Shown here in pieces: positions 5,748 to 64,000 of a DNA stretch of 64,000 nucleotides; the first letter of the stretch is position 1, and each line of letters begins with the position of its first letter. Source of the DNA: Streptomyces venezuelae (lineage in GTDB: Bacteria > Actinomycetota > Actinomycetes > Streptomycetales > Streptomycetaceae); contig NZ_CP029191.1 of NCBI RefSeq assembly GCF_008642335.1, forward strand, positions 5,456,001 to 5,520,000. The letters run 5' to 3'. The position numbers were made by a program, and so were the translations under genes. The notes beneath the pieces are model-generated. The model was not told the DNA's origin, did not search any database, and saw only the letters and a list, made by a program, of their open reading frames with translations.

Positions 5748-6704
5748 TCACTTGCCGCCGTTGATGACGGCCTTCTCGACCGCGCCGTCCTCGACGCCCC
5801 ACTTCTTGATGATCTTTTCGTAGTCGCCGTTCTTGATGATCGCGTCGAGGGCCGCCTGGATCGCGTCGCGCAGCTCGGGGTTCTTCTTGGAGACGGCGAT
5901 GCCGTACGGGGCCGCCTCGACCTGCTCGCCGACCAGCTCGAAGTCCTTGCCGCCGCCCGAGGTCTTCACCGCGTACGCGGCGACCGGGAAGTCGGACGAA
6001 CCCGCGTCGGCGCCGCCGGAGCGCAGCCGGGTCTGGGCCTGCTGGTCGTTGTCGAACTGCTCGATCGCGATCTTCTTGCCGCCCTTGCACTTCTTCGACT
6101 CGGCCTTCGCCAGGTCGTGCGAGACGGTGCCGCGCTGGACGACGATCTTCTTGCCGCAGAGGTCCGCCCAGGTCTTGATTCCCTGGTCGTCGCCCTTCTT
6201 GGTGTAGATCGAGACGCCCGCCGTGAAGTAGTCGATGAAGTCGACGCCGTCGCCGACCTTCTTCCCGGTCTCCTCGTCGACGCCCTCCTGGCGGTTCTTC
6301 GTGTCGGTCATGGCCGACATCGCGACCTGGTAGCGCTTGGAGCGCAGGCCGCCGAGGAGGGTGTCGAAGGTGCCGTTCTCGAACTCGAACCGCACGCCGA
6401 GCTGCTTGCCCAGCGCCTCGCCCAGGTCCGGGTCGATGCCGACCGTGTCGCCGGACTTGTCCTTGAACTCGACCGGCGGATAGGCGATGTCGGACCCGAC
6501 CTTGATGACGCCCGCGTCGCGGATGTCCTTGGGCAGCTTGTCGGCGAGCGGGGCGTTGCTGACCGAGTCGCTTCCCTTGTCGTTGGTCTGGTCGCCGCAG
6601 CCGGAGAGCAGCAGCGAGCCGACGACCGCGATCGTGCCGACCGCGGCAATCCGGGACTTCGCGGACTTGCCGACGGTCCTACGACAAATGGAGCTTGCGG
6701 TCAT
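5748..6704 (-). CDS. ABC transporter substrate-binding lipoprotein (SBP family 3)
   Basis: 318 residues. The signal peptide ends in lipobox LLLSGC, so the mature protein is a lipid-anchored extracellular receptor. The mature part has the family 3 pattern: IKVGSDIAYPPVEFKDKSGD near the start and GIDPDLGEALG after it. This family binds polar amino acids or related cations; the exact ligand is not visible. The start at 6704 follows a GGAGG site and gives a proper signal peptide, unlike the longer frame upstream. It is first in the import operon, whose promoter must lie in 6705-7177. Confidence 0.94.
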   Translation of the reverse strand: MTASSICRRTVGKSAKSRIAAVGTIAVVGSLLLSGCGDQTNDKGSDSVSNAPLADKLPKDIRDAGVIKVGSDIAYPPVEFKDKSGDTVGIDPDLGEALGKQLGVRFEFENGTFDTLLGGLRSKRYQVAMSAMTDTKNRQEGVDEETGKKVGDGVDFIDYFTAGVSIYTKKGDDQGIKTWADLCGKKIVVQRGTVSHDLAKAESKKCKGGKKIAIEQFDNDQQAQTRLRSGGADAGSSDFPVAAYAVKTSGGGKDFELVGEQVEAAPYGIAVSKKNPELRDAIQAALDAIIKNGDYEKIIKKWGVEDGAVEKAVINGGK

Positions 6705-7177
6705 GGTGGGTCCTCCGGCGGATGAGGGAGTTGCCGAACGGTCGGGCACACACCTTCGGGTGTCGCGACCTCGTGTGATGAGCGCATCTTGCCATTCGGA
6801 CCGTCCGATTCTGGGTGCCGGAGATATCAAAATCGGATAACGGGAGAGCCTCGAAACGCGACATTGGTGGCTGAGTGGGCCGCAAAATGCCCTATTCGGG
6901 GAATCTGGAGGAATCGGGCATTCCCCAGTGACACTCGTCCCGGCCTCCAGGGACTTCTGCTGAGCATGCTGCAACCAATGTCACTCGCCCGTGCCCACCG
7001 CCTTCAGGTACAAAGGTTGGCTACACCCCTCATCCGGGGCCCAGGGCGCGTGTGCGGCGCGCTCGCGTGTCCGTACCTCCCTCCGCCGACAGGCGGGGAA
7101 CGGACGCGGTGCCCGCCCACTTCCCAACCGGGAGTGGACACCCTCAACTGATGAATAAGACTTAAGGGGTCAGACAA
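6705..7177. promoter_or_regulatory. Divergent intergenic region, transporter / malic enzyme
   Basis: This 473-base stretch holds no convincing gene. It must contain the promoters of the leftward transporter operon and the rightward malic enzyme gene. Nested inverted repeats lie about 100 bases before the transporter start: CGGAC-C-GTCCG at 6797-6807, and TCCGATT (6804-6810) pairing with AATCGGA (6831-6837). These are plausible operator sequences, but no regulator can be assigned. Confidence 0.45.
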
Positions 7178-8392
<1,215 letters not shown>

Positions 8393-10555: not shown

Positions 10556-11434
10556 TCAGAGAACCTTCTTGTCGGTCGAGCCGTCGTTCTTGTGTTCGTT
10601 CCCGGCGTCGTCGTACGGATCCTCCTCCATCTGTGGCCTGCGCAGGAGCGCGATGGAGCCGGAGACCGTCGTCGCCCTGAGCCGCCCGCGGCCCGCGCCG
10701 AGGCGCCCGGTGATCCGCTTGGCGCCCCACTGACCCCCGACCCGCAGGTCCTCGAAGGCGTTGGACACGGAGCCGCTCGCCGTGTCGACCTCGACCTCCG
10801 CGTCCGCGGGGTGGGGGAGCCGGATCGCCATCTCGCCGGAAACGCTCGTGAGGGCGACGTCGGTCGGGGTGCCCGCCGGGTCGAGGTCCACGATCATCGA
10901 GCCGCTCACGGAGTCGGCCCGGACGGAGTGGCCCGCCGCCTCGACGACCGTGAGGCCGCCGGAGACGGAGTTGAAGCGGAGGTCGCCGGTGACGCCCTGT
11001 GCCTCCACGTTGCCGGACACGGTGTCCGCGCGGACCTGCCCCGCGAGACCGAGCAGGGTCGTGTCGCCGGTGACGCCCTTCACCTCGGTGCGGCCCTCGA
11101 TGCCGGAGACCACGGCGCCGGCGCCGACCACGCCCACCTCGACGCGGGTGGCGGCGGGCACGGCCAGGGAGACGAGCGCGCTGCGGCGCCAGCCCTTGCG
11201 GTCGAGCCACTTGAGGAAGCCCTTCCAGGGCAGGTCCTCGTACGCGACGGTCAGCGTGCCGTCCTCGTGGGTCACCTTGAGGGGTGGCCCTTCTATCTCC
11301 GTGACCTCCAGGCGGGCGGCGCCCTCGTCCGTGCCCACCACGTTCACCGTCCCGTTGACGACACGGACGTGGAGTGCGGTCACGGGGGCGTCGAACGTGA
11401 GCTTCATCGGCTCGGCGACGGACCACTCCGACAT
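10556..11434 (-). CDS. DUF4097-family beta-helix repeat protein
   Basis: 292 residues built of repeated beta strands of the form VSGD/VSGS (TDVALTSVSGEMAIRLPH, VDTASGSVSNAFEDLRVG), the hallmark of DUF4097/DUF4098 adhesin-like proteins. There is no signal peptide, so a cytoplasmic or peripheral location is likely. The biochemical role of the family is unknown. A strong AGGAGGTCA site precedes the ATG. It is paired with the PadR regulator immediately downstream, a common pairing in actinobacteria. Confidence 0.85.
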   Translation of the reverse strand: MSEWSVAEPMKLTFDAPVTALHVRVVNGTVNVVGTDEGAARLEVTEIEGPPLKVTHEDGTLTVAYEDLPWKGFLKWLDRKGWRRSALVSLAVPAATRVEVGVVGAGAVVSGIEGRTEVKGVTGDTTLLGLAGQVRADTVSGNVEAQGVTGDLRFNSVSGGLTVVEAAGHSVRADSVSGSMIVDLDPAGTPTDVALTSVSGEMAIRLPHPADAEVEVDTASGSVSNAFEDLRVGGQWGAKRITGRLGAGRGRLRATTVSGSIALLRRPQMEEDPYDDAGNEHKNDGSTDKKVL

Positions 11435-11591: not shown

Positions 11592-12401
11592 ATGTCGTCC
11601 GATGCTGTTTCCCCAGGTGCGCTGCTGCTCTGCCGGGCCGAGCCCGACGTCGTGGAGATCGCGGCCCAGCTGCTCCGCGAGCGGATGCTGCTCGCGGAGG
11701 CCGGCCGTGACTGGAGCGTGCTCGTGCCCGAGGGCAAGCCGTGGCTGCACGGCGAGGAGCCCGTCGACCGCGTGCTGACCGGTTGGGCCACCGCGCTCGC
11801 CGTCGGCTCGGCATGGCCCGTGCTCGCCCTGTGGTGGGACGGCGACCGCTCCGGCTACACCCTCGCCTCGGGGTTCCGGCGGACGGTCGGGTACGAATGG
11901 CTGGCCAACGGGACGCCCGTGGGGGAGGACGAGGCGATGCGCACGTTCGCCGCGCGGCTCGGCCTCGACCCCGTCCTGGACATGCAGTCACTGGAGGCGC
12001 TGGCCCGCCCCGACACGGAGGCGGACGCGCGGGCCAGGATGCTCGGACTCCTCGCCGTCCTCACGCGCGCGGGCCTCACCCTCCCGCCGGGCCTCGGCCC
12101 CGGCGAACCGGCGGACCGGCTGCGCGAGGCGGCCCGCGTCCAGCAGGGCGTGCGCCAGGTCGAGTGGCCCGGATGGCGGGACGCGGTCAGAGCGGAGTTC
12201 GGAGCGGTCGAGAAGGGCCCCCTGGGCCCCTGGGTGCGTGGACCCCGCGCAAGGGCCCTGGCGGCCGCTCAGCTCGCCGCGGGCCTCCCGTTGGCGGTAT
12301 GGGCCGTACGGCGCCGCAGCGGAGGCTGGGGCGCGGCGGCGGCCCTCCTGATGGCGCAGGGGGCGGCGGGGCTCGCGTACGACCGCGTGCGGAGCGCCTG
12401 A
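11592..12401 (+). CDS. Conserved hypothetical protein with C-terminal hydrophobic helices
   Basis: Not recognised as a named family. 269 residues. The first 130 residues are mixed alpha/beta with a Trp-rich stretch (WPVLALWWDGDRSGYTLASG). Residues 130-215 look helical. The C-terminus has hydrophobic segments (about 222-238 and 245-262) that could be membrane-associated. The ATG has no ribosome binding site and lies 6 bases after a TAGCGT box (11580-11585), so a leaderless transcript is likely. No functional link to its neighbours is apparent. Confidence 0.7.
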   Translation: MSSDAVSPGALLLCRAEPDVVEIAAQLLRERMLLAEAGRDWSVLVPEGKPWLHGEEPVDRVLTGWATALAVGSAWPVLALWWDGDRSGYTLASGFRRTVGYEWLANGTPVGEDEAMRTFAARLGLDPVLDMQSLEALARPDTEADARARMLGLLAVLTRAGLTLPPGLGPGEPADRLREAARVQQGVRQVEWPGWRDAVRAEFGAVEKGPLGPWVRGPRARALAAAQLAAGLPLAVWAVRRRSGGWGAAAALLMAQGAAGLAYDRVRSA

Positions 12402-55592: not shown

Positions 55593-55635
55593 GGTGCCCC
55601 CGGCAGGATTCGAACCTGCGCACACGGCTCCGGAG
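55593..55635 (-). other. att site: 3' fragment of tRNA-Arg(CCG)
   Basis: On the minus strand this 43-nt stretch contains the anticodon loop CTCCGGA (anticodon CCG), the 3' anticodon strand, the T arm with GTTCGAATC, and the acceptor CGGGGGC-A-CC. Similarity stops at the 5' side of the anticodon loop: the following bases cannot pair with the anticodon stem. This is the displaced 3' end that remains after integration into a tRNA gene. The intact gene should lie at the far end of the element. Confidence 0.85.
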
Positions 55636-57992: not shown

Positions 57993-58256
57993 ATGATGCA
58001 CATCGCTGCACTTCAGGCGGCCGTTACCGCCGACGGAATCGAGGGCGAGCCGACGGCCGCTGAGCTGGACGCCATCGAACACGAGCTGCCCGCGATCCTC
58101 GCCGACGTCGAGTTGCTGGACGCACAGATCATTACCCTGGACCGGGTTCCGAACGAGGTCGACGCCCGACGTCTCCGTCGGGCCCACCGCAAGGTGCTCG
58201 CCGCCCGACGCGCCCTCACCAACACGCCCCACGGCATGGCGGGGGGCGCGGCATGA
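57993..58256 (+). CDS. Small AICE protein (possibly DUF6284-like)
   Basis: 87 residues, helical and acidic in the middle (TAAELDAIEHELPAILADVELLDAQI), ending in a basic helix. It resembles small proteins that precede DUF2637 genes in streptomycete elements, which I recall as DUF6284. No enzymatic motif. The stop overlaps the next start by ATGA. Confidence 0.7.
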   Translation: MMHIAALQAAVTADGIEGEPTAAELDAIEHELPAILADVELLDAQIITLDRVPNEVDARRLRRAHRKVLAARRALTNTPHGMAGGAA

Positions 58257-59146
58257 ACCGCAAGGGCAAGACCCTGCTGGTGCTCGCGCTGGTCGGCGTG
58301 GTCGGCATGGCCTTTCGGGTCTCGTGGAACGCATTGCGGGACATCGCGAACGCGGTCGGTGCCGACGAGCGGGCCGCGACGCTGTACCCGTTCGTGGTCG
58401 ACGGTCTGATGGCGCTGGCCCTGGTCGCCACCCTCGTCCTGGTCGGCGACGACCGCAGGTTCGCGCTGCGGGTGCTGGGCACCTACACCGTCGCCTCGCT
58501 GGTCCTGAACTACGTGCATGGTCTGGTGCCGGAACTGCACGACCAGACCGTGGCCTGGGGTCGACTGGCCGACTGGGACCTGGCCAACTGGGTGCTGGTG
58601 CTGCTGGCCACGTCGCTGCCGGTCGGGTCGATCTACTTCGGATCGGATCTGGTCGCCAAGGTGCTCCACCACCGCCCCGCCCCGATCGACCCGCCGATGA
58701 TGAATGCGGAGGAATCTACTGAGACTGTCGTAAAACGGTCTACGGCTGACCTGCCGGTATCGACTCCGGCGCCGATCAACGCCAGCGCGATGACGCTGCC
58801 CCGACCTGTGCCTGTCGGCTTTGTGAAGTCGGCCCTTCCGGCCAAGCCGCCCCGCTCGATCGCTCCGGCTCCGGTCGTGCCGATCGAGCGGGGCGTGGTG
58901 GCTGCCGAGTCAGCCCGACCGCGTCGCGCCACCGGCCGCGTGCCAGACGCGGCGAAGCCGCGACAGCCCAAGCGCACGCCGGAACAACTGCTCGCCGAAG
59001 CACGGGCGGCGACGGCTGCTTGGCCGGACGCGAAGGTGACCGGCGAGGGCATCCGCCGCGCGATCCGCACCTCCCCGGCCAACGCCCGGGTGCTGCGGGA
59101 CACGCTCCTTGCGGAGCGGGCCCGCATGGCGGGGGTGGCCACATGA
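58253..59146 (+). CDS. spdB: DUF2637 membrane protein, SpdB-like spread protein
   Basis: 297 residues. Four membrane helices in the N-terminal 130 residues (LLVLALVGVVGMAFRVSWNAL and onward) form the DUF2637 domain. A Pro-rich linker follows, then a helical domain (RTPEQLLAEARAATAAWPDAKVTGEGIRR) that looks HTH-like. Spd proteins move transferred DNA between hyphal compartments after conjugation. It is joined by ATGA overlaps to the genes on both sides, so it is firmly part of the transfer operon. Confidence 0.85.
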   Translation: MNRKGKTLLVLALVGVVGMAFRVSWNALRDIANAVGADERAATLYPFVVDGLMALALVATLVLVGDDRRFALRVLGTYTVASLVLNYVHGLVPELHDQTVAWGRLADWDLANWVLVLLATSLPVGSIYFGSDLVAKVLHHRPAPIDPPMMNAEESTETVVKRSTADLPVSTPAPINASAMTLPRPVPVGFVKSALPAKPPRSIAPAPVVPIERGVVAAESARPRRATGRVPDAAKPRQPKRTPEQLLAEARAATAAWPDAKVTGEGIRRAIRTSPANARVLRDTLLAERARMAGVAT

Positions 59147-59985: not shown

Positions 59986-60011
59986 GTGCGGGGCCTTTGC
60001 GCGCCCCGCAC
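59986..60011 (+). terminator. Hairpin after the PAPS reductase-like gene
   Basis: GTGCGGGG (59986-59993) pairs exactly with CCCCGCAC (60004-60011), with a 10-base loop, 18 bases after the stop codon. Confidence 0.6.
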
Positions 60012-60042
60012 CTCCTCTCTCTGCCTCTCCTAGGAGTGAGTG

Positions 60043-60369
60043 ATGGGCAAGCCCGACACGCGCCACCTCGACCGCCAGATTCGCGAGACGACCCGCAAGC
60101 TCGACGCGGCCCGGCAGCGCCAGATGTGGCCGCTGAACGGACGTGAACGCCGCGCCATCCTCGCCGCTATGACCAGCGTTTCCGTCAAGGTGGCGCGGCA
60201 CAAGAGCACCGATCGCGACGTCACGAAGGCCGACCAGGCGTGGGAGTCGGCCGCGACGCGGCTTCAGGCGGAGATCACCGCCCTGGAGACGGAGCGGCAG
60301 AACGTCGTGAACGCGGCGGCTGCTGAGAAGGCGGCCAAGACCGCGAAGAAGTCTTCGGGGTGGTGGTGA
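60043..60369 (+). CDS. Small AICE protein ending in GWW
   Basis: 108 residues, strongly helical with coiled-coil character (HLDRQIRETTRKLDAARQRQ, then WESAATRLQAEITALETERQ). It ends KKSSGWW. The function is unknown. AGGAG lies 6 bases before the ATG. The stop overlaps the next small gene (GTGA). Confidence 0.65.
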   Translation: MGKPDTRHLDRQIRETTRKLDAARQRQMWPLNGRERRAILAAMTSVSVKVARHKSTDRDVTKADQAWESAATRLQAEITALETERQNVVNAAAAEKAAKTAKKSSGWW

Positions 60370-60539
60370 CCGTGGCTGCCAAACCGGCGCCTCCCGGTGA
60401 GTGCCCGCAGTGCTGGGCGCACGCGCACGACAAGAGCATCCACAGGGCCCTCAAGGGCGAGCAGTGCCTGCCGTGCCTGGACCACATGAACAACGGCCAC
60501 CCCGTCCTGGTGCCCAAGAAGCCGTCCAGCTGGTGGTGA
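60366..60539 (+). CDS. 57-residue zinc-ribbon-like AICE protein
   Basis: 57 residues. Two CxxC pairs, CPQC (13-16) and CLPC (34-37), flank His-rich sequence, which fits a small zinc ribbon. The C-terminus ends KKPSSWW, matching the KKSSGWW end of the preceding protein. The GTG start overlaps that gene's stop by four bases. Probably a small DNA- or protein-binding partner in transfer. Confidence 0.6.
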   Translation: MTVAAKPAPPGECPQCWAHAHDKSIHRALKGEQCLPCLDHMNNGHPVLVPKKPSSWW

Positions 60540-60606
60540 CCACCCCCGCCCCTGCTCTTCCCCTCGCCTTCCCGCCCCGTCTGGGGCAGTCAGGAGTGAT
60601 GCCGTC

Positions 60607-62745
60607 ATGAGCGGCAACGTCGTACCCCTGCACAAGACCCCCGCCCCGCCCGACATCGCGCCCAGCAGCGAGCAGGGCCCGAACCTGACCGTGGTGCCCG
60701 AGCCCGCCCCGGCGCCGGTCGCTCCGCTGTGGGTGCGCTCCGGGCGTGCCGTGCGGCATGCGGTCACCCACGAACGCACTGTTGAGGTCGGCCGGTTGGC
60801 CGTGCGGCACAGCATGTACGTAGTCGGTGGCACGAGGATCGTGACCCGTCGGGCTTGGGATGGCCGTACCGGTGCCCGCTACGAACGCCTCCTCCGCGCT
60901 GCTGAAGCCACCGGGAACTATGAGGTGGCCGCGGAGTGGGAGGAGCGGCTGCAGCGCTTCCGCGAAGCCCGTCACCGCCGCCGCATGGACCTCCTGAAGT
61001 CCCCCGTGGACGTGGCCAAGGGACTCGCGGTCGGGACCGGCGCCGGCATCGGCACGCTCGTCGGGCTCGGGGTCGTGCTGGCCATCGCGAACGAGGACAT
61101 CACTGACGTCCTCACGCCGTTGCTGGCGGTCATCGAGTTCATCCGCCTGCTCATCACCATCGTGTCCGTCGTCTGGGGCCCCGCGCTGAAGATCGGACCG
61201 CTGCTGGTGCTGCTCGCGCTGTGGAGCGTGGGCCGCAAGCAGCAAGCCGCACCGAACTGGGTGCTCCCCGCCAACGCACGCTCCGGCGAGGGCGAACCCA
61301 TCACCCCATCCATCGTCGTCAAGGCCCTGGGCGACCTCGGCGTGCCCGCGCTGCGCAACGCCATCAAAGAGATGGGCGATGCGGGCGCGGCGATGCTGGG
61401 ACCGATCCGGATCGCCGGATGCGGCGTCGAAGTCGACGTCACCCTCCCGTCCGGAGTGTCCACGGTTGAGGTGCAGCAGCGGCGGCGCAAGCTCGCCGAG
61501 AACCTGACCCGGCACGAGCACGAGGTGTTCATCACCATCCCCGAAGCCGCCCGAACGGTGCGCCTGTGGGTCGCCGACTCCGGTGCGCTGGACGAGCCGA
61601 TCGGTCCGTCTCCGCTGGTCACCGACGAGACGATGACCGCGGACTACTGCAAGGGCAAGGCGCCGTGGGGTCAGGACCTGCGCGGCGATGCCGCCGCGCT
61701 CAGCCTCTACCAACGCCACCTGCTCATCACCGGCCTGTCCAACCAGGGCAAGACCGTCGCCCTGCGCTCCCTGGCCCTGTGGCTGGCCCTGGACAAGTCG
61801 GTGCAGTTCCTCATGGGCGACCTCAAGGGCGTGGGCGACTGGGCCATGTTCGACGGCCTCGCCACGACGCTCATCCAGGGGCCGACCGACGAGCACGTCA
61901 TCGAGGTCACCGAGATGGTCGAGGCCGCGGTCGAGGAGATGAACCGTCGCATCCAAGCCCCGCCCGGCACCACCTTCCCGCCCCTGATCGTCCTCGTCGA
62001 CGAGGCGCAGGTGGCGTTCATGTGCCCCGCCAAGGACGAGGACCGGCGCCCCTACGGCGGCTCGAAGGCCAACTCCCGCTACTTCATGGCCGTCCGCAAG
62101 ATTCACAACCAGGGCCGTGCGGTGAACGTCCTGATGTGGCAGGGCACCCAGGACCCGACAAACGAGAACCTGCCCAAGCTCGTGCGCGAGGGCGCCCACA
62201 CCCGCGCCTCCCTCGCGCTGGGCACGGAGTCGCAGGCGCGGATGGCGCTCGGCGATAAGGCGGTGGATGGGGGCGCGGCCCCGAACCTGCTCCGTCCCGG
62301 CTTGGATCAGGGAACCCTGATCCTGGCATCCAGCGGCATCGACATCCCACAGGGCCAGTCGTCCATCACGGTGCGCACGCACTACATCAACGACGACGAC
62401 GCCAAGGCCATCACCGAGCGCGCGAAGGCCCTGCGGGACGGGGTCACCACCTTGCACGCCATCGACCGGAGTGAGCAGCGCGACCCGCTCACGGACATTC
62501 TCTCCGTGCTCGGGGACGCGCCCCGCGTGCGGACCAAGGACGTGCTTGCGCGGCTCGCCACGCTCGACGCGGGCACGTACGGCGAGTGGTCGTTCATCAA
62601 CCTCAAGCGGGTTCTCGACAACGCGGGGGCGGAGCCGTACAAGTCCGATGGCGTCATGGTCGTCTCCCGTGACCGGGTCGCCCGCGCCCTCGCCAACCGC
62701 CCCGAGGACGAGGGTCCGGACGCTTCCATTTCGCACATCGACTAG
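60607..62745 (+). CDS. tra: FtsK/SpoIIIE-type DNA translocase, TraB/TraSA-like
   Basis: 712 residues. Membrane helices lie at about 140-165 and 195-215. The motor domain has Walker A GLSNQGKT (376-383) and Walker B LIVLVDEAQ (Asp465, Glu466). The last 80 residues (RVRTKDVLARLATLDAGTYG) form a winged helix expected to recognise repeats in DNA. Such proteins move double-stranded plasmid DNA between mycelia without a relaxase. The repeat cluster just downstream is the likely recognition site. Confidence 0.93.
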   Translation: MSGNVVPLHKTPAPPDIAPSSEQGPNLTVVPEPAPAPVAPLWVRSGRAVRHAVTHERTVEVGRLAVRHSMYVVGGTRIVTRRAWDGRTGARYERLLRAAEATGNYEVAAEWEERLQRFREARHRRRMDLLKSPVDVAKGLAVGTGAGIGTLVGLGVVLAIANEDITDVLTPLLAVIEFIRLLITIVSVVWGPALKIGPLLVLLALWSVGRKQQAAPNWVLPANARSGEGEPITPSIVVKALGDLGVPALRNAIKEMGDAGAAMLGPIRIAGCGVEVDVTLPSGVSTVEVQQRRRKLAENLTRHEHEVFITIPEAARTVRLWVADSGALDEPIGPSPLVTDETMTADYCKGKAPWGQDLRGDAAALSLYQRHLLITGLSNQGKTVALRSLALWLALDKSVQFLMGDLKGVGDWAMFDGLATTLIQGPTDEHVIEVTEMVEAAVEEMNRRIQAPPGTTFPPLIVLVDEAQVAFMCPAKDEDRRPYGGSKANSRYFMAVRKIHNQGRAVNVLMWQGTQDPTNENLPKLVREGAHTRASLALGTESQARMALGDKAVDGGAAPNLLRPGLDQGTLILASSGIDIPQGQSSITVRTHYINDDDAKAITERAKALRDGVTTLHAIDRSEQRDPLTDILSVLGDAPRVRTKDVLARLATLDAGTYGEWSFINLKRVLDNAGAEPYKSDGVMVVSRDRVARALANRPEDEGPDASISHID

Positions 62746-62765
62746 AGGGAGCCGAGCCGCTTCGG

Positions 62766-62924
62766 GGCAGGGAGGCAGGGAGAACTCCCTGACCGCCTCC
62801 CTGCCCCGCCTCCCTGCCCCTGACCTGCACAAATGATCGTTCAGGGAGGCAGGGAGGCACCACAGGTCACCCCCCTGAAACCCCCTCCTGAGAGCCCCCG
62901 GAAGGGGGTGTCTCTGCCTCCCTG
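62766..62924. repeat. clt-like CAGGGAG repeat cluster
   Basis: The heptamer CAGGGAG occurs eight times within 157 bases: forward at 62768, 62776, 62842 and 62850, and inverted at 62785, 62797, 62810 and 62918. The first pair is an exact tandem GGCAGGGA repeat of 8 bp. In Streptomyces plasmids such 8-bp repeats next to the tra gene form the clt locus recognised by TraB. The stretch to 62947 has no gene. Confidence 0.7.
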
Positions 62925-62947
62925 AACGCTTGATGAAGGGATTCCGC

Positions 62948-63382
62948 ATGCATTCCGACACCACCCCCGAGGCGGCCGTCACGGGCGCCGATCTGAGCGA
63001 GGCGCAGGCCGACGTTGAGGCACGCCGGATCATCGCCGACGCCTACCGCGACACCACGCCCGTCGCTCAGCCCGGACGGCCCCCGATGAGTCAGGGCGCC
63101 ACCGATGCCAGCGTGCTCCTGCTCGCCGGGGGCGCCACCACCGTCATGGTCGGCGGCACCGCGAGCGCGCTCATGTATGTCTCGCAGTTCGCCGACCCGA
63201 TCGTCTGCGGCCTCGTCTTCGGCGCCCCGAGCTTCCTCGTGCTCGCCCTGGCCCGCCTCGCCCGACGGGCCAAGCCCGCCCCGGACATCCACCACCACTA
63301 CGCCGGTCCGGTCCATCAGGACCAGCGCACCGTCCACAGCCGCACCAGCGGCGTGTGGGCCAAGACCACCAACCAGCACTGA
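62948..63382 (+). CDS. Small membrane protein of the AICE
   Basis: 144 residues. Two adjacent membrane helices (about 58-80 and 88-108) follow a polar N-terminus; a His-rich segment (DIHHHYAGPVHQ) and a basic tail end it. Not recognised by name. It may be a Spd-type partner of the translocase, by position only. AAGGGA precedes the ATG at 6 bases. Confidence 0.65.
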   Translation: MHSDTTPEAAVTGADLSEAQADVEARRIIADAYRDTTPVAQPGRPPMSQGATDASVLLLAGGATTVMVGGTASALMYVSQFADPIVCGLVFGAPSFLVLALARLARRAKPAPDIHHHYAGPVHQDQRTVHSRTSGVWAKTTNQH

Positions 63383-63406
63383 CCAGCCCGGGGAAGGAAA
63401 TCCACT

Positions 63407-63814
63407 GTGAGCAGCGGACAACACTGCAAGACCATCCGCTACATCGCCCCGACGGAGGCGTACGCGCTGGCCCCGAGCATCCTCAGCGAGATCGGTTGGA
63501 CGACACGCACCGTCGCCGACGCGGAGTGCTTCGACGAGTTGGAGCGGGAGTACTACCTGCGCAAAGCCGCGCTGCTCGACCGCATCGCGCTGCTGGATGA
63601 GCCCGACCTGTTCAGTGACGATGACGTCACGGAGACCGCGCTCGCCGCGGCCCTGATGCTGCTGGACATCGACCGGCCGCACCTCGCCGCGCACCTCGCG
63701 GCAGAGGGCGAGAAGGACCCGCGCGGCTACGTCCGCCAGCAGTACGACCGGCAAGCCGTCTGTGTCTGCGACGACCCCGGCGAAGGCCCCTGCTTCCTGC
63801 ACCCCGACCGCTAG
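63407..63814 (+). CDS. AICE protein of unknown function with C-terminal cysteines
   Basis: 135 residues, helical in the middle (ALAAALMLLDIDRPHLAAHLA). The end has three cysteines in CVCDDPGEGPCFLH, which with His might bind metal. The GTG start begins 24 bases after the preceding stop. The function is unknown. Confidence 0.65.
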   Translation: MSSGQHCKTIRYIAPTEAYALAPSILSEIGWTTRTVADAECFDELEREYYLRKAALLDRIALLDEPDLFSDDDVTETALAAALMLLDIDRPHLAAHLAAEGEKDPRGYVRQQYDRQAVCVCDDPGEGPCFLHPDR

Positions 63815-63820
63815 CTACGC

Positions 63821-63865
63821 CAAGGGCGGCCCCCGCATCTCGCCAAAGAACCGGGGCCGCCCTTG
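63821..63865 (+). terminator. Terminator before the replication gene
   Basis: CAAGGGCGGCCCC (63821-63833) pairs exactly with 63853-63865 with a 19-base loop, directly after the 63814 stop codon. Confidence 0.75.
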
Positions 63866-63900
63866 TCACCAGCACCTATCAGAACTGGAGACATCCAGCA

Positions 63901-64000
63901 TGACGCAACCGACCGACATCCGGCGAGAGAGCCTGCTCACCGCCGCTTTGAACGCTGCGGAACGGGGCTGGCACGTCTTCCCGCTCCGTCCCGGCACCAA
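63901..64000 (+). CDS. Prim-pol replication protein (3' end outside window)
   Basis: 33 residues are visible before the window ends. The start TDIRRESLLTAALNAAERGW followed by HVFPLRPGTK is typical of the N-terminal bifunctional primase/polymerase domain of AICE replication initiators (RepSA/Prim type). The catalytic residues lie beyond the window. ATG follows CTGGAGA. Confidence 0.75.

Follow-up and report, generated by a model that had tools for sequence, protein, structure and literature searches.

A heptamer repeat array behind tra is probably the clt locus of a Streptomyces venezuelae AICE, and its word co-varies with the predicted winged helix of Tra

The window, the whole stretch of DNA analyzed here, is 64 kb long (bases 5456001-5520000) and comes from the 8.05-Mb, single-contig genome of Streptomyces venezuelae; coordinates refer to the window unless stated otherwise. 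It reaches into an AICE of 12.75 kb that is integrated in tRNA-Arg and bounded by a 42-bp direct repeat. Repeat comparison placed attL, a copy of the tRNA-Arg(CCG) 3′ end without assigned strand, at 55594-55635, and the other copy, again the 3′ end of tRNA-Arg, at L005 12305-12346, where the complete tRNA-Arg(CCG) gene occupies 12305-12377. The element encodes a GntR regulator, a DUF6284 protein, an SpdB-type protein, Tra, a prim-pol, a DUF3631 ATPase, a xis-like protein (HTH_17) and an integrase candidate of 491 aa, which gave no Pfam integrase match and is therefore named by position, as in L276. The SpdB-type protein (DUF2637; Pfam PF10935) is encoded on the forward strand at 58253-59146, and the gene after DUF6284 in the plasmid NZ_CP108827.1 is named spdB. 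The element thus combines tRNA integration, end repeats, int (by position) and xis, replication genes and a TraB-type tra, as is characteristic of AICEs.

The tra gene (60607-62745, forward strand, stop codon 62743-62745) encodes a 712-aa FtsK/SpoIIIE-type DNA translocase of the TraB type (Pfam PF01580, E 1.3e-7), the kind of FtsK-like protein that an element with a clt locus is expected to encode. Tra matched the FtsK motor, 2iut, by profile and by structure model, and its match to the NCBIfam plasmid TraB model was weak at 21.7 bits (cut-off 800). AlphaFold2, run on the full-length protein and on the domain alone, predicted a C-terminal winged helix at codons 625-700 (62479-62706, forward strand) with helices at 627-635, 643-653 and 663-672 and strands at 678-680 and 683-687; pLDDT was at least 90 for 70 of 98 residues of the C-terminal domain modeled alone. 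The FtsK gamma domain was not among the matches listed when this domain was compared structurally. We presume that the winged helix is the reader of the repeat array that follows. Beyond the array are a forward 144-aa ORF that is rare in relatives (62948-63382) and the start of the primase/polymerase gene (63900-64000, forward strand; Pfam PF09250, E 3.4e-46), which continues at L005 7900-8814.

The array sits between the tra stop (62745) and the ATG of the next ORF (62948). It carries the heptamer CAGGGAG four times forward and four times inverted (CTCCCTG) in 157 bp, counted from the first to the last base (62768-62924), which confirms the eight repeats directly after tra that the original prediction had described. 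With both strands counted, CAGGGAG is the densest 7-mer of the window, all its starts falling within 152 bp. A chance origin was rejected, since 2000 dinucleotide-preserving shuffles of 62746-62930 contained at most three copies (mean 0.31) against the real eight; any 7-mer at all reached eight copies in 11 of the 2000. The exact 8-bp tandem unit proposed earlier, GGCAGGGA, does occur five times in the array, but relatives keep mainly the 7-mer, and the apparent tandem arises from the 8-bp spacing of boxes 1-2 and 6-7.

The plan of the array recurs as nine box positions in 154 loci with Tra identity of at least 68%. It opens with box 0 at the stop codon, here a degenerate GAGGGAG (62745-62751, forward strand) that overlaps it; a full [N][AG]GGGAG box stands at this position in 115 of the 154 relatives, and 110 have CAGGGAG or CGGGGAG. 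A direct pair 8 bp apart follows, consisting of box 1 (62768-62774, kept in 147 relatives) and box 2 (62776-62782, kept in 149), and then three inverted boxes on the reverse strand, box 3 (62785-62791; 147), box 4 (62797-62803; 152) and box 5 (62810-62816; 120). Between the array halves a motif count placed an unstranded anchor, TGACCTGCACAAA, at 62821-62833, which in the plan is near TGACCTGC. After the anchor come a second direct pair, box 6 (62842-62848; 149) and box 7 (62850-62856; 150), and the last inverted box, box 8 (62918-62924; 152), separated in the window by 23 bp from the start codon that follows. Conservation is lowest for boxes 0 and 5 (115 and 120 of 154); each of the others is found in 147-152.

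Relatives were drawn from 239 tra loci, made up of the best 80 of 193 candidates in the GTDB collection (these 80 all Streptomyces) and further sets of 30 (the window itself dropped), 27 new loci, 100 found by coordinates and 3 own copies. Among the 205 distinct loci with Tra identity of 33% or more (three lie in this genome; the fragment L143 was left out), the 250 nt after tra hold at least five boxes of the GGGAG type in 200, while a control stretch of 250 nt inside tra had at least three boxes in none. The commonest XYGGGAG box of a locus begins with CA in 151, CG in 28, TG in 8, AG in 7, GA in 7 and TT in 2, and two have none. Word switching is concerted, as 1262 of 1281 boxes agree with their own locus at base 2. 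The five loci without GGGAG arrays carry changed words behind tra, CAGTGG- or CAGTGA-like in L132, L133, L237 and L138 and TGATGGA in L239. At 27-29% Tra identity, 13 loci (L145-L157) have palindromic words at the corresponding position, of the GCTACCGGTAGC or CTAGC type as judged by eye, which suggests that arrays behind tra may be general in AICEs.

This genome holds two further tra-array copies, at genome positions 4434318-4434578 and 3938906-3939148, with Tra 96% and 84% identical; one has the same word, and the boxes of the other, the third copy of the genome, are CGGGGAG or a close form. Two addresses, that is two array words, are therefore found within one genome. When the chromosome was searched for clusters of CA words with two three-word patterns (gaps of at most 30), only the two CA arrays and position 2169898 matched.

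A wider search of 150 genomes from the genus of the window with CAGGGAGNCAGGGAGNNCTCCC gave 31 matches, spread over 28 genomes, and none with the reversed control. Compared by eye, 29 of the 31 are no more than 80 bp from a match to tra; the remaining two, L260 and L261, lack any match to this Tra over 20 kb. The array of L260 stands in front of an integrase gene, and L261 (2695-10687) is an island in which a full clt-like array is found together with genes for an integrase, a prim-pol, a phage capsid protein and an HNH protein. This capsid gene was considered as a marker of array islands and discarded, as its two closest relatives, L288 and L289, are without such an array. Among viral contigs with the array, tra is present in 13 of 14, the one without it being L267 (5.2 kb). 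For the tra-less arrays, decayed AICEs and passengers are both possible origins. A separate contig, L290 (21-15971), combines a TraB-like gene of 33% identity and a repeat array with downstream phage genes for portal, prohead protease, capsid and tail tube; it is possibly a conjugative phage hybrid.

For the 126 of 187 loci that have at least 4.5 kb of sequence downstream, tblastn gave matches to this prim-pol in 44, to the DUF3631 ATPase in 34, to int in 24 and to the next ORF in 9, and by this sequence comparison the array is a companion of tra rather than of the other modules. These counts bear on the idea that the repeats are iterons, the replication origin of the excised circle, which the nearby replication genes and the occurrence in L261 of the array with a prim-pol gene and without tra would favor. 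Iterons would travel with a replication module, and the array does not, so far as tblastn, which misses divergent prim-pols, can tell: 81 of the 126 array loci have neither this prim-pol nor this ATPase. One of the 81, L024, does have a divergent prim-pol, so not all of them are free of one. Eight candidate replication proteins from such loci comprised one D5-type protein (L227) and seven without a Pfam match. Moreover, the ATPase gene is followed by a distinct array, built of CCGCTACC (L005 10271-10424), and clusters of CGCTAC are present in 30 of the 126 loci, namely in 30 of the 34 with the ATPase and none of the 92 others. Because the array occurs beside different replication modules, we consider it extremely improbable that it is the origin. 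The CCGCTACC repeats themselves, present in both orientations at genome positions 5522271-5522424 just beyond the window, are a probable replication origin of these AICEs.

We also considered that the words might repeat because they are stems, the array forming RNA or single-stranded DNA hairpins that act as a terminator or attenuator separating tra from the gene that follows, or as a cruciform. The RNA fold of 62746-62940 is stable (-108.5 kcal/mol, z -5.1), with none of 200 shuffles as stable, and the predicted fold joins box 0 to box 5 and boxes 6-7 to box 8, which allows all boxes to be paired. At 62763-62808 and in relatives, the bases just outside box 1 and box 4 co-vary (T-A, G-C, C-G). 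The base before box 1 can pair with the base after box 4 in 108 of 152 relatives (59 expected), and the next bases outward in 136 (121 expected), which points to selection for a hairpin or cruciform within the array. However, the flanks of boxes 6 and 8 do not co-vary (81 against 77), nor do those of boxes 0 and 5 (six pairs, p 0.05 to 1.0), and a control pair, position -3 of box 1 with +3 of box 5, also scored above its shuffles (103 against 93), so that a small excess carries little weight. A terminator was rejected, as a consensus scan found no T-run terminator and Rfam gave no match in 60000-64000. Hairpins would also leave the link to the Tra wing, described below, unexplained. We therefore view a hairpin as a second property, since the other tested flanks do not co-vary and the wing would not follow from it. 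Some of the array probably doubles as a structured inverted repeat, much as in the pIJ101 clt, and it is quite improbable that structure is the main function of the repeats.

That link was found by comparing the array word with Tra. By base 2, 151 of the 205 loci class as CA and 30 as CG (181 in all), while the others have mixed or other words, and the best single Tra column separating CA from CG loci is 681. In this Tra it is an Asp (codon at 62647-62649, forward strand), placed in the wing turn by the AlphaFold2 models. CA loci have Asp in 136 cases, Asn in 5, Glu in 4, Ser in 3, Gly in 2 and a gap in 1, and CG loci have His in 26, Gly in 2, Asn in 1 and Ala in 1; exceptions to the pairing number 15 CA (N, E, S, G) and 4 CG (G, N, A) of the 181, besides one gap. 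Counted by box in the 187 loci with Tra identity of at least 53% (L141 left out), Asp681 loci (134) have 997 CA and 14 CG boxes and His681 loci (26) have 8 and 140. The corresponding numbers are 34 and 12 for Asn681 (12 loci), 40 and 8 for Glu681 (6), 7 and 6 for Gly681 (4) and 18 and 1 for Ser681 (4), with none for Ala681 (1). Two or more boxes of both kinds occur together in the arrays of 1 of 134 Asp loci, 0 of 26 His, 2 of 12 Asn, 2 of 6 Glu and 0 of 9 others. In the major groove, contacts of Asp tend to be with A or C and those of His with G.

Shared ancestry was accounted for with a FastTree tree of Tra residues 1-600, on which the word switched 17 times independently; residue 681 changed concordantly in 14 switches, in the opposed direction in none and not at all in 3 (p 0.00012). 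Columns 675, 687 and 690 also follow the word (687: 14.6 with, 1.0 against). The original prediction had proposed a comparison with the recognition helix in related AICEs; the residue that best tracks the word falls in the wing turn, outside that helix.

Another DNA-binding protein could in principle own the word, with the array as the operator of a GntR/KorSA-type regulator or of the small protein upstream of tra; the array is indeed intergenic, and the element encodes a GntR regulator. Yet no column of the upstream 109-aa protein accounts for more than 0.22 of the word entropy (102 loci), against 0.94 for Tra 681 (175 loci). Values for the integrase (0.87, 23 loci), the 135-aa ORF (0.60, 21), the ATPase (0.52, 34) and SpdB (0.48, 50) are inflated by the few CG loci (5 to 7), and usable columns were lacking in GntR (35 loci, 2 CG), DUF6284 (53, 2 CG) and the 144-aa ORF (10, 3 CG). 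A GntR reader is less economical than a Tra reader, and we hold the operator explanation to be highly improbable.

Because the C-terminus of Tra adjoins the array, neutral co-transfer of the two could mimic co-variation. We therefore measured how well the word is predicted from neighboring sequence, as the nearest-neighbor balanced accuracy. Over 142 loci, 26 of them CG, accuracy by amino acids of Tra was 0.84 at residues 500-519, 0.87 at 630-649, 0.99 at 670-689, 0.96 at 680-699, 0.89 at 690-709 and 0.63 at 700-712. In the same set, third codon positions gave 0.82 at 670-689 and 0.56 at 690-709, the array without its words reached 0.95, the 30 nt after box 8 reached 0.65 and the start of the next ORF 0.48. 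By all nucleotides, accuracy was 0.96 for codons 670-689, 0.72 for codons 692-712, 0.79 for the gap before box 1 and 0.65 for these last two together. Prediction is thus best from the wing and worsens towards the array, which argues against plain hitchhiking, if not conclusively, and the low accuracy beside the array may partly be noise, given how short and variable the tail is. Even with residue 681 left out, the wing follows the word (0.92 for codons 670-680, 0.94 for 682-691), so the signal points to the whole wing with 681 as its best column.

In a tree of the C-terminal part made without 681, only 2 supported switches are left (7 on all branches), which indicates that wing and array largely move as one cassette with few local replicates; the single residue 681 is accordingly no more than a candidate cause. 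The closest opposed pair, L095 and L094, is 91% identical from residue 601, with D681H one of 10 differences, and in the alignment of the two loci the words are changed while much of the surrounding sequence is shared.

KOPS and SRS are polar, genome-wide words that are read by the C-terminal winged helix of FtsK and SpoIIIE. The resemblance to KOPS noted in the original prediction did not survive comparison, as GGGNAGGG is not conserved, occurring at least once forward in 33 of 187 arrays and reversed in 89. In contrast to KOPS/SRS, the array is local with boxes in both orientations, and we rejected a KOPS-type polar motif because GGGNAGGG is not kept in one orientation.

The closest parallels are the clt loci of Streptomyces plasmids, which are short direct and inverted repeats of 5-9 bp, as is the array. 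For pSVH1, the TraB word is given as GACCCGGA in PMC5133688, which also reports chromosomal clusters of this word; the pSVH1 clt is likewise covered by PMC4170104. In the pSVH1 sequence (NC_007431.1) traB lies at 5824-8142, and GACCCGGA follows within 115 bp, forward at 8158, 8180, 8212 and 8233 and reversed at 8249; two further copies lie at 10791 and 12316, and the plasmid's densest 7-mer, CCGGGTC, is contained in the word. A cluster of short words directly behind traB, the order GntR, Spd, TraB and the downstream anchor TGACCTGCNNAAA, which pSVH1 carries once at 8289, are shared with our element. The word itself differs, as does orientation (4:4 here, 4:1 in pSVH1), and the two Tra proteins are 25% identical over 370 columns. 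The strict anchor TGACCTGCNNAAA was found in 49 of 187 loci (Tra identity of at least 53%) and in no locus of two more distant sets of 17 and 13; a looser form was found in 69, 9 and 9 loci of these three sets in order of falling Tra identity, and TGACCTGCNNAAA in none of the control stretches inside tra. According to PMC3583192, TraB of pSVH1 reads its word by helix alpha3, whereas for this Tra the co-variation lies in the wing.

The same paper, PMC3583192, describes the pWTY27 clt as 159 bp behind traA plus 16 bp inside it, with 7-bp direct and inverted repeats that are footprinted by TraA and needed for transfer. Our array has likewise 7-bp direct and inverted repeats behind the tra gene, but the pWTY27 words, compared here by that description, are TGACACC and CCCGCCC. 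The pIJ101 and pJV1 clt loci are there said to have short direct and imperfect inverted repeats needed in cis, an inverted repeat being essential in pIJ101; they differ from the array in their words (5 and 9 bp) and in that the pIJ101 clt is close to korB. A further parallel is the free plasmid NZ_CP108827.1 of Streptomyces sp. NBC_00859, with Tra 55% identical, an array behind the FtsK-type gene and the same gene order (prim-pol, DUF3631, HTH, integrase). Its word is TGGGGAG, Asn aligns with 681 (by eye), and a clt is not annotated.

Taken together, we conclude that the array is very probably a clt locus read by Tra, by analogy with the plasmid systems. The proposal that a candidate clt read by a TraB-type translocase lies at the expected place draws support from the family-wide conservation of the array, its co-variation with the wing and the position of GACCCGGA in pSVH1. 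In the mechanism we propose, Tra would dock on the array by the winged helices at the C-termini of its subunits, with one 7-bp word per helix, and the docked protein would pump the excised double-stranded circle into the recipient hypha. Binding, hexameric docking and the need of the array for transfer are here inferred from the TraB paradigm of pSVH1 and pWTY27. The wing, chiefly residue 681, would help to choose base 2, Asp going with A and His with G, with Asn and Glu looser.

A fuller reading, on which we are evenly divided, joins several of these points. Wing residues, chiefly 681, would set base 2 of clt and perhaps base 1, so that the address could be read from Tra; wing and array would be exchanged as a cassette; the three tra-array copies of this genome would represent two addresses; and elements with a tra-less array would be passengers on the pump of a co-resident AICE. 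That clt loci have repeats behind tra is already known, and what is new is this word and its pairing with a residue. In the accessible parts of the open-access literature we found no report of the CAGGGAG word, of a family-wide array or of a TraB residue-to-base pairing, and a search by word gave no title on Streptomyces transfer loci among the matches listed, in keeping, within that literature, with the earlier statement that the word had not been described for other elements.

The DNA that the TraB pump accepts decides which elements, and perhaps which parts of the chromosome, move between Streptomyces. With some 200 arrays and natural Asp and His variants, both of which occur in one genome, the specificity of TraB becomes testable.
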